Under the pieces are notes generated by a model, which ran no database searches, was not told where the DNA came from, and was given only the letters and a program-made list of their open reading frames with translations. The position numbers and the translations under genes were made by a program. Shown here one piece after another: positions 454-3,285 of a stretch of 64,000 bases of DNA; position 1 is the first letter of the stretch; each line of letters opens with the position of its first letter. Source of the DNA: Flavobacterium glaciei (GTDB lineage Bacteria > Bacteroidota > Bacteroidia > Flavobacteriales > Flavobacteriaceae); the NCBI RefSeq assembly GCF_003350545.1, contig NZ_QQBA01000004.1, forward strand, positions 1-64,000, given 5' to 3'.

Positions 454-1221
454 ATGAACTTGAATTTTAATTTAGATCTAGCTGTAGGATATAAAAGCAA
501 TTCACAGATTGCAAGAATTTTAACTGAAAACTGGGTTAAAGAAAATTCATACTGTCCAAACTGCGGTCAATTACCATTAAACGATTTTGAAAACAATATG
601 CCGGTTGCCGATTTCTATTGTTTAGGTTGTAGAGAAGAGTTCGAATTAAAAAGTAAAAGCGGGAAGTTAAGTACCATAATTAATGATGGTGCTTATGAAA
701 GTATGATTAAAAGAATTACTTCAGATACCAATCCTAGTTTCTTCTTTTTGACTTATGACAATAATACGGTTAATAATTTCTTGGTAATACCAAAACATTT
801 TTTCACTCCAGAAATTATTATAAAAAGAAAACCTTTATCTATTACTGCTAAACGAGCAGGTTGGATTGGTTGTAATATTGACATTTCGAAAGTTCCTCAA
901 AGTGGAAGGATTTTTATAGTAGAAGATTCAAAAATAATTGAACAAGAAAAAGTATACATAAAATTAAAAAACACTGATTTTTTAAAAACTAAAAATTTAG
1001 AAACAAGAGGTTGGATTTTAGATATTTTAAATTGCGTTGAAGAAATTAAAAAGCAAACATTTACATTAGATGAATTATATGCATTTGAAAATAGATTAAA
1101 AATTAAATATCCAAACAATAATCATATCAAAGACAAAATCCGTCAACAATTACAGTTTTTGAGAGATAGAGGATTAATAGAATTTAACGGAAGAGGAAAT
1201 TATAAAAAAATTGAAATATGA
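454..1221 (+). CDS. dpnC: DpnI-family methyl-directed restriction endonuclease
   Basis: The 255-residue protein aligns along its whole length with remembered DpnI (254 residues), the type IIM enzyme that cuts GATC only when the adenine is N6-methylated. Visible are the PD-(D/E)xK residues D53 (in PVADFYC), E64 and K66 (in EFELKSK). A structural zinc site is formed by C34, C37, C56 and C59. The C-terminal winged helix (about 183-255, with NNHIKDKIRQQLQFLRDRG) in DpnI adds a second methyl-specific DNA contact. No key residue is missing. It overlaps the next gene by 4 nt (ATGA). The role would be destruction of incoming Dam-methylated DNA, so the host genome should lack G6mATC. The family call is very secure; exact specificity is inferred. 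The symbol follows the pneumococcal gene. Confidence 0.95.
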   Translation: MNLNFNLDLAVGYKSNSQIARILTENWVKENSYCPNCGQLPLNDFENNMPVADFYCLGCREEFELKSKSGKLSTIINDGAYESMIKRITSDTNPSFFFLTYDNNTVNNFLVIPKHFFTPEIIIKRKPLSITAKRAGWIGCNIDISKVPQSGRIFIVEDSKIIEQEKVYIKLKNTDFLKTKNLETRGWILDILNCVEEIKKQTFTLDELYAFENRLKIKYPNNNHIKDKIRQQLQFLRDRGLIEFNGRGNYKKIEI

Positions 1222-1421
1222 AAAAATATATATTTATTTCACCCGAAGGCTCAACTGAAGCCCCAAACAGTTTATACGAAGTAAATAACATGCAAGTAAT
1301 AGGAATAGTTGAAAATGTCATCAATGAGGATGAAGCATTAAAAAAACTTCTAATTGAAAACGAATGGATAATTGATGCTGAATTCAATATTGCTGAATTT
1401 ATTATTTATGAAATCTCATGA
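1218..1421 (+). CDS. Small protein coupled to the DpnI homologue
   Basis: This 67-residue protein starts in the ATGA overlap with the DpnI-like stop codon, so translation is probably coupled. It is acidic, with no signal peptide or membrane segment. The core (about residues 24-67, INEDEALKKLLIENEWI followed by a hydrophobic end) looks like a small alpha/beta fold. I do not recognise a characterised family. The pneumococcal DpnI cassette also has a second gene (dpnD) after dpnC, so position suggests a partner or modulator; that is inference. Its stop codon abuts the stop of the convergent methyltransferase within the palindrome TCATGA (1416-1421). Confidence 0.7.
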   Translation: MKKYIFISPEGSTEAPNSLYEVNNMQVIGIVENVINEDEALKKLLIENEWIIDAEFNIAEFIIYEIS

Positions 1422-1898
1422 TTTTAATTCCAAATATCGACCTATAATACCCGAATTTTTTAAAGCCAGCGCATTCTCTTTTCCATATGCAACGAATACA
1501 CTCGGAGCTCCAGGAGTTCCTGCTTGAATACCTGAAATATGGTAAAATCTTATTCTCCCTTTTACAAATAATATTGCATCTGCATTATTCCAAATATGCT
1601 CAAAGAAACATTTTGTCTCTGTTCTTGCAAAAATTAATGCAATACCGTTTCCGTGAAATTTTAATTTTTCAAGCCATAATTCCATTCCCCTTCCATAAGG
1701 AGGGTTTAAATAAACTCTACCAAACCAATCTTTTGACAAACCATCATCAATAATTGTAAAATTATTTTTTGCATGTAAGAAAGGAGCATCTATTGGAATA
1801 CAAGGATCTAAATCAAATTCACCTAATTTTAATACTAAATTGGGTGGAGTTAACCACTCAACTTTTGTGTTTTCGCAACGTTCAAACGATGTATTCAT
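1416..1898 (-). CDS. Phage-type Dam DNA N6-adenine methyltransferase
   Basis: The 160-residue protein matches the compact phage-type Dam family (Pfam Dam, PF05869). It shows EWLTPP (14-19), FDLDPC (28-33), DDGLS..W, the catalytic motif NPPYGR (65-70), an ARTET segment, GRIRFY and a VFVAYGK end. All hallmark motifs are present and the length is normal for the family, so it looks intact. These enzymes methylate adenine in short targets; target choice varies and cannot be read here. It is convergent with the DpnI-like operon with no space for a terminator between stops. If it made G6mATC, the neighbouring endonuclease would attack the host, so specificity, silence or regulation needs an explanation. 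It could be a phage remnant. Confidence 0.88.
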   Translation of the reverse strand: MNTSFERCENTKVEWLTPPNLVLKLGEFDLDPCIPIDAPFLHAKNNFTIIDDGLSKDWFGRVYLNPPYGRGMELWLEKLKFHGNGIALIFARTETKCFFEHIWNNADAILFVKGRIRFYHISGIQAGTPGAPSVFVAYGKENALALKNSGIIGRYLELKS

Positions 1899-2298: not shown

Positions 2299-3285
2299 CT
2301 AAAACACAAAAACCTCTTTTTTATGCCAAATAAAATTTTCCGGCGAAGGATATTTTTTATTGTCCTCTGGTAACAAAATTCTAACACCTGCAAATTGCGT
2401 AATCGAAAAAGGCGAATCGTTTTCTTTGATAGTTGGTGAAACTCTAACAATATAATCTTCATTTATTGTAATCAAACCTCGATCATATGCTCTATGCAAA
2501 TTTGGCGATAGCGAAATCCCATTTGATACTGTGTCATCATTAGATAAACTAAATGGGATTATATGACAAGCATCTATCATTTGAGCGTTAGTAGTTGTTT
2601 CAATTCGCATACCAGAAATACAGCATTGATTTTGATAAATTTTTGGAATTTCACGTTTAAAAATACTCCCTCTGATATATCTTTCTTCCTCTATTTCATT
2701 ATCCGTTAATTCTAGTGATTTTTCAATCATTAAAGTGCGATATTCCTCTTTAGTGTCGTTGAGTATTTGCTCTTTAATTATGTTTTCTAAATCATATCTG
2801 TCAATGATTCCAAATTGATAATTAGCTTTTGTATTTGGAAAATAGAAATCTAAAATTGTATTCTCTAATTCTGTTCGATATATTGGATTTATTATTAATT
2901 CAAATAAATCTTTATCTATTTCTGCGAAAGCAATTCTACTCTTTAATTTACCAAGACTACTGATTTTTTCTTTTTTATCTGACAAACCATTTATATAAAC
3001 TAAACGCCAAAAGGGTTCTGAATTTAAGTGAAAAAAAGGAAGTGAAAAATTCTGAGTATGATTCGTTTCTACGAGGCTAATCCAATTACTTTTAAATGCG
3101 ATAACCAATTCACCAGTAATAAAAACTTTGTTTATCTGGATTTCCCCTTTATGTATTAACTGTATTATTGAAAGCAACAAAATTGGCTTATGGGGAGCTT
3201 TACCCAAATTTGTGTTTGTAGCTCTTTTAAGTGAATGAAACTGCTTCCTATACTTTTCAAAAACTTCATTTGGTACCATGTTCAT
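2299..3285 (-). CDS. HNH endonuclease, predicted modification-dependent restriction enzyme
   Basis: The 328-residue protein ends in an HNH nuclease domain of the HNH_2 type: CCISG (221-225), DACHIIPF (238-245) with the catalytic His, N255, and NLHRAYDRG (262-270). The N-terminal domain carries RATN..GKAPHKPILLLSI (21-40). This resembles the head domain of HNH restriction enzymes in which a sulfur-binding domain recognises phosphorothioate DNA. That link is from memory and tentative. No membrane segment or signal peptide. It stands alone on the minus strand beside the DpnI-like module, which strengthens a defence role. The HNH nuclease call is secure; the substrate is inferred. Confidence 0.85.
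   Translation of the reverse strand: MNMVPNEVFEKYRKQFHSLKRATNTNLGKAPHKPILLLSIIQLIHKGEIQINKVFITGELVIAFKSNWISLVETNHTQNFSLPFFHLNSEPFWRLVYINGLSDKKEKISSLGKLKSRIAFAEIDKDLFELIINPIYRTELENTILDFYFPNTKANYQFGIIDRYDLENIIKEQILNDTKEEYRTLMIEKSLELTDNEIEEERYIRGSIFKREIPKIYQNQCCISGMRIETTTNAQMIDACHIIPFSLSNDDTVSNGISLSPNLHRAYDRGLITINEDYIVRVSPTIKENDSPFSITQFAGVRILLPEDNKKYPSPENFIWHKKEVFVF

Follow-up and report, generated by a model that had tools for sequence, protein, structure and literature searches.

Can an enzyme that cuts methylated GATC and a methylase of the Dam family be kept side by side in one cell, and what would such a pair do? In textbooks, DpnI and GATC methylation stand opposed, and a strain has either one or the other. 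The window analyzed here (64 kb in total) is the first part of contig C4 in a host genome of 3.14 Mb and 42 contigs, and an earlier note had described in it an intact DpnI-like enzyme and an intact Dam-type methylase forming one module. A conserved cassette of DpnI and a Dam-family enzyme would represent either self-modification used as a weapon or switch, which would be new, or a methylase clade with a changed target.

The dpnI gene, a small gene encoding 67 aa and the methylase gene of PF05869 are all located close to the left edge of the window. The dpnI gene (positions 454-1221, + strand) encodes a DpnI homologue of 255 aa, a predicted Gm6ATC-dependent endonuclease. Profile searches of this protein gave 268.6 bits for PF06044, 118.2 bits for the C-terminal winged helix PF17726 and 384.7 bits for the PADLOC model mREase_II, and its residues 1-253 were aligned with DpnI in PDB 4esj (E 1.1e-103). 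The PD-(D/E)XK residues D53, E64 and K66 and the four-Cys zinc site (Cys34/37/56/59) are kept. The methylase gene (1416-1898, - strand) encodes a phage-type, Dam-family DNA adenine methylase of 160 aa, which scored 37.1 bits against PF05869 Dam (curated cut-off 28.1) and carries NPPY at residues 65-68, a motif that is invariant in 24 of 24 cassette methylases. The residues, the profiles and the NPPY motif confirmed that both enzymes are intact and lie where the earlier note had placed them, and by their sequences both look functional. The two-gene picture of that note has to be corrected, since a third gene, the small gene (1218-1421, + strand), had been missed between them. It belongs to no known family, and its start overlaps dpnI by 4 nt, while it is convergent with the methylase gene and the two ends overlap by 6 nt.

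To find other genomes with the same pair, a check that had been proposed with the first description, a species-genome collection was scanned with the window DpnI protein, and 71 loci were obtained, one of which (L080) is a 35-residue fragment only. The sample leans to close relatives because the search patterns were derived from the window DpnI. The results showed that 23 of the 71 loci carry a full-length methylase and one more (L014) a truncated one, and in 23 of 23 the order is dpnI, small gene, convergent methylase, with an extra ORF between small gene and methylase in L016. The claim of one module stands for the arrangement, with the correction that the genes are convergent and not a single operon. 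The small gene is present in all 23 other loci bearing the full-length methylase and was matched in 26 loci at E < 1e-5; those in which it lacks a full-length methylase are L014, L019 (where the contig ends) and L072.

If the two enzymes were chance neighbours, or the methylase a phage relic, abundant phage relatives (455 phage records) and the 47 of 71 fetched loci without methylase (one being the 35-residue fragment, and seven having <1 kb of contig after dpnI) could be accounted for. This reading is very improbable, given the layout shared by 23 of 71 loci, dN/dS values < 0.1 and the phylogeny of the methylase: the 24 full-length cassette methylases (window plus 23 loci) formed one clade with SH-aLRT 100 when compared with the best 40 of 80 viral relatives. 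Genome samples pointed the same way. Among 397 genomes of the family, DpnI was found in three (with stops in G041) and the methylase clade in two, both adjoining dpnI; among 395 Bacteroidota genomes, DpnI was found in seven and strong methylase matches (E <= 1e-90) in three, all adjoining dpnI, together with three weaker matches (E 1e-23 to 1e-55) in genomes lacking a DpnI match. No clade member was found away from dpnI in the 397 + 395 genomes, the window genome being in both sets. Only G175 is a new cassette from these samples, because the window genome, G575 and G715 had already been counted (G575 and G715 are the fetched loci L043 and L065, 100% identical over 3477 bp). Chance adjacency, which would have undone the earlier interpretation, was rejected on the shared layout, the single clade and the adjacency in genome samples.

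The single cassette clade among phage relatives suggests that the methylase was recruited from phage probably in a single event. On the DpnI tree (67 entries, four short ORFs being excluded), presence of the methylase required 13 changes compared with a shuffled mean of 19.8, and well-supported branches force two of them; the methylase module may therefore have been swapped or lost several times. Using 10 pairs among the window and L010-L013, we obtained dN/dS values of 0.040-0.095 for dpnI, 0.048-0.175 for the small gene and 0.054-0.096 for the methylase, indicating that purifying selection acts strongly on all three genes. An uninterrupted dpnI frame was found in 23 of the 25 entries with a methylase (window and L014 included). 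In L055 and L065, dpnI is interrupted yet the methylase is full-length, and in L014, dpnI is kept and the methylase truncated; neither gene strictly needs the other, because L055 and L065 have lost the dpnI frame and L014 the methylase. L055 and L065/G715, the latter from Flavobacterium limicola DSM 15094, are natural dpnI knock-outs for methylome comparison. Cultured strains with both genes include Flavobacterium daejeonense DSM 17708 (L021) and Pedobacter glucosidilyticus DSM 23534 (L054).

The window DpnI is 68% identical to the Flavobacterium cyanobacteriorum homologue in L029, which is presumably FcyTI or a near copy of it. As described in the available text of a survey of winged-helix nucleases, FcyTI cuts Gm6ATC and reduced the transformation of Dam+ E. 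coli >1000-fold (PMC11037411). An active FcyTI-like DpnI should be incompatible with constitutive Gm6ATC, and therefore the methylase would have to be gated or else leave another mark.

The likely target of the methylase was also analyzed. The NCBIfam equivalog TIGR01712 (phage_N6A_met) was missed at 25.4 bits against a cut-off of 97.05, and no PDB entry was matched by sequence. The structure model had a mean pLDDT of 79.7, with residues 1-14 below 50. A Foldseek search with this model gave no match at E <= 0.001, and a second structure comparison returned adenine methylases among other proteins, the best being a cap-specific adenosine methylase (Z 9.1), with Z 8.1 for E. coli Dam and Z 7.0 for DpnM. 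The modelled fold thus fits the adenine-methylase class and says nothing on the target. The single PF05869 relative with a measured target that we found is M.Phi93DAM, which scored 117.5 bits against PF05869 and is 35% identical to the window methylase over 133 aa. According to the accessible part of the report, this enzyme of lactococcal phage phi93 yields Gm6ATC as judged by SMRT sequencing and DpnI/DpnII digestion (PMC4190342). In another report, seen in excerpt, phage DNA was resistant to MboI and sensitive to DpnI, the phage having a gene of the Dam superfamily (PMC8306585), which would agree with a GATC target, but the host of that phage may supply Dam. GATC in 80 viral contigs with methylase relatives had an observed/expected ratio of 0.82, third lowest of 16 palindromes, and was uninformative on the target. 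Small methylases with GANTC specificity have been described in alphaproteobacterial phages in the part of the study at hand (PMC5537653), and a GANTC target was rejected for likeness to the one enzyme compared, phiLM21_p027, which is not of PF05869; the same study also names 179-aa Paracoccus enzymes. Overall, we consider it somewhat more likely than not that the cassette methylase targets GATC.

The cassette methylase shares with the phage orphan Dam enzymes of PF05869, such as M.Phi93DAM, its family and NPPY motif, and it differs from them in being host-borne, in forming a clade of its own, in being tied to dpnI and in having paired promoter GATC sites in 18 of 24 cassettes. Its clade also differs in sequence, with at least four otherwise conserved positions changed: where 71-80 of 80 phage relatives have W, T, H and L, it has F40, H42, N46 and F135; the changes at these positions suggest that the target may have shifted. 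As an alternative, the methylase would recognize a target other than GATC, or GATC within a longer or asymmetric site, and would be normally expressed with no DpnI conflict, its mark being a compatible epigenetic or anti-restriction mark in a two-layer cassette with DpnI. We regard this alternative as tentative and only slightly less probable than a gated GATC methylase: residues that are otherwise near-universal are changed in the cassette clade, the methylase falls under the TIGR01712 cut-off, strong constraint on both genes in the same cells is easiest without a conflict, and the methylase has outlasted the interruption of dpnI in L055 and L065. However, it leaves unexplained why the methylase promoter has two GATC sites and why the gene is specifically linked to that of a GATC enzyme, and also the GATC specificity of the characterized relative.

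The upstream region of the methylase gene provided new support for the GATC theme. Two GATC sites, 31-33 bp apart, were found before the methylase start in 18 of 24 cassettes, at about 61 and 30 bases from it (55-62 and 24-30). In the window, the core promoter block TTGATCTAATATTTG (1916-1930, - strand) contains the proximal GATC (1925-1928) beside a -7-like element, and the upstream block TTGAAAATGATCATATTA (1950-1967, - strand) contains the distal GATC (1956-1959), 31 bp from the proximal one. The pair flanks TTG, and the proximal GATC adjoins a TAATATTTG element; we take TTG and TAATATTTG to resemble the -33/-7 promoter of Bacteroidota. A GATC pair spaced by 30-34 was found in only 2 of the 79 phage relatives whose upstream sequence was long enough (both with identical proteins) and in 1 of 223 other ORFs of the methylase-bearing loci (Fisher p 2.6e-21 for promoter pair against controls, in a test that ignores shared ancestry). 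Both GATCs are invariant in the 18 cassettes by the way these were chosen, and several neighbouring bases are invariant too; these conserved bases suggest that a candidate regulator may read more than GATC. Each of TTGATCTAATATTTG and TTGAAAATGATCATATTA had a single exact match in the genome, at the methylase promoter, which speaks for a regulator encoded in the cassette rather than for a host regulon, without proving it; matches with 1-2 mismatches were about twofold above the reversed-pattern control. The pair is absent from six of 24 cassettes (L015, L017, L036, L053, L056 and L065), in L015 and L017 though the dpnI frame is open, and the further cassette G175 also lacks it. In L045, the region upstream of the methylase contains four GATC sites with successive spacings of 10, 10 and 12 bp, close to one site per turn of the helix. 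Another conserved element, similar to ACTTATTGTGTGTA, precedes the methylase in L015, L016, L017, L032, L042, L051, L054 and L065.

The promoter pair also bears on two other explanations. The first supposes two states, one in which the methylase is on, GATC is methylated and DpnI is off, and one in which DpnI is on and GATC unmethylated, the promoter pair serving as a memory element, so that a single cassette would be the counterpart of the pneumococcal choice between DpnI and DpnII. The location of the GATC pair in the methylase promoter and the many methylase cassettes among DpnII-type sequences would suit it, whereas upstream of dpnI no comparable conserved GATC was found in 27 entries bearing the methylase or the small gene, L017 alone having one within 110 bp, and we regard it as unlikely. 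In the window and L065, a GATC lies 21 nt inside dpnI. The second explanation, which we rate as rather improbable, is an inverted restriction-modification system: the methylase would place on host GATC a mark, for instance on cytosine, that blocks DpnI, foreign Gm6ATC would be cut, and the host would thereby survive foreign Dam. Own-site sequences in methylase promoters occur in the control of restriction-modification systems. Cytosine methylation of GATC is described as blocking DpnI in the portion of the paper available (PMC5608340). However, the NPPY motif and the characterized relative both indicate N6-adenine, and Gm6ATC methylation would be the opposite of the host protection given by a Type II restriction-modification methylase.

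We also asked whether the genomic neighbourhood bears traces of GATC cutting. In the window, GATC was the most depleted of 256 tetramers (83 observed, 176 expected). For 22 loci with the methylase (L014 among them), the median observed/expected ratio was 0.35; it was 0.38 for 32 DpnI loci without methylase and 0.87 for 24 control stretches of 20 kb, taken from genomes of the family or genus in which DpnI had no match. Loci of <9 kb were excluded from both locus groups, and of the control stretches, 10 on contigs <6 kb were excluded and two did not exist. Depletion relative to controls was significant with the methylase (p 2.8e-7) and without it (p 9.3e-8), and the two locus groups did not differ (p 0.71); it was also equal with and without dpnM/dpnA-like sequence (p 0.38). 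For five other palindromes, the lowest p value of methylase loci against controls was 0.027 (GTAC). Depletion was rejected as proof that the pair cuts its own host, being equally strong without the methylase. These results indicate that GATC is costly to DpnI hosts, through a DpnII past, foreign Dam or self-methylation, and do not implicate the methylase.

Taking the evidence together, our main reading, to which we give a probability of roughly 0.4, is a variant Bacteroidota DpnI cassette with an off-state GATC methylase, a GATC-gated promoter and self-destructive activation. The cassette would comprise dpnI, the small gene that overlaps it at the position of dpnD, and a methylase of its own, convergent and recruited from phage, probably once. 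Incoming Gm6ATC DNA would be restricted by DpnI. The methylase, most likely also recognizing GATC, would be silent or barely expressed in resting cells, and the pair of GATC sites in its promoter would serve as a switch particular to the cassette, which a protein of the cassette binds or methylates. Once this switch opened, the methylase would turn the GATC sites of cell and phage into DpnI substrate, and its activation would be self-destructive because host GATC would be among them. Gating of a GATC enzyme is favoured by the paired sites of the promoter, by the locus and by the characterized relative; that the methylase targets GATC and is kept off, what would trigger it and what would follow are our inferences. 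The conserved unit has to be set against the doubts raised by the target shift, the missing promoter pairs, the lack of extra GATC depletion and loci L055, L065 and L014. If the methylase is gated, its activation would arm DpnI against the cell, which was the third option of the earlier note, and the pair is a possible abortive defence. The fuller version, in which a silent, dedicated GATC methylase is turned on at infection through a GATC-sensing promoter and arms DpnI on the cell's own DNA, is more doubtful.

The cassette can be compared with known systems. In Streptococcus pneumoniae, the gene order of the DpnI cassette is dpnC-dpnD, so that, as here, a methyl-dependent GATC nuclease is followed by a small second gene, and the Streptococcus locus L059 has dpnI followed by a DpnD-like gene. 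Unlike the pneumococcal arrangement, the cassette has a second gene without detectable relation to DpnD, and it further includes a phage-type methylase of its own. Homology of the small protein to DpnD went undetected (hhalign probability 0.4), and its fold search gave weak matches only (best E 0.81). A DpnD-like gene occupies the same slot in 34 other loci, none of which has the methylase. FcyTI and other winged-helix fusion enzymes of Type IV/IIM are also DpnI-type Gm6ATC cutters, one of them from Flavobacterium, and in the accessible text of their survey the directly adjacent amino-methylases are frameshifted (PMC11037411). The main text of that survey as available does not mention an intact convergent pair like the present one. 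We found no description of an intact DpnI-methylase pair in the open PMC literature; subscription literature is largely outside this search, and absence is unproven. A paper on a pneumococcal phage (PMC6755750), in the part consulted, deals with a Type I system and has no bearing on the cassette.

In Neisseria, drg (dam replacing gene) is a DpnI homologue at the dam locus with a truncated dam, and dam and drg are mutually exclusive, according to the available portions of two papers (PMC4269198, PMC516771). Relatives of the cassette likewise adjoin or sit in a truncated dpnM; unlike drg, the cassette nuclease travels with a Dam-family gene. In the 70 loci plus the window, a dpnM- and/or dpnA-like sequence, often truncated, was found beside dpnI in 45 of 71 cases (18 of 25 with methylase, 27 of 46 others), suggesting that dpnI often takes the place of a DpnII-type methylase. 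Across Bacteroidota, DpnI genes have settled within DpnII-type systems, much as drg did at the Neisseria dam locus. The genome search found neither a PF02086 Dam nor a second PF05869 gene in the window genome, and together with the truncated flanks, the lack of PF02086 fits the statement that DpnI strains are normally without Dam. In the window itself, only 453 bp separate the contig start from dpnI, and nothing dpnM-like was found in them. The dpnM-like protein of L020 can be aligned with DpnM (284 residues) from residue 7 to residue 266, beyond which the two differ.

Downstream of dpnI, L031, L026, L037, L040, L044, L050 and L052 carry a DpnA-like sequence that spans residues 4-272 or more of the query (280 residues), a possible further GATC methylase beside DpnI. 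In the roughly 110 bp preceding dpnI, a conserved block (GGGCGTT...CCCTAACGC) links the dpnM-like gene to the nuclease gene in L020, L024, L026, L031, L035, L040, L047, L050 and others, and may be a scar of a mobile element or of recombination. In the window, an HNH protein gene (2299-3285, - strand) resembles phosphorothioate-dependent restriction enzymes (NF045808, 103 bits; cut-off 180), and it was rejected as a part of the cassette, having no relative in the fetched DpnI loci. Positions 1-173 are a repeat at the contig edge with nine copies including that of the window (C4, C7, C15, C13, C26, C23, C27, C24 and C12), several of them at contig starts, and are probably a multi-copy sequence at which the assembly breaks. 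An identical direct repeat of 26 nt at 179-204 and 2122-2147 brackets the dpnI-methylase cassette, with another copy on C3, and could be either an insertion mark of the cassette or a dispersed repeat.
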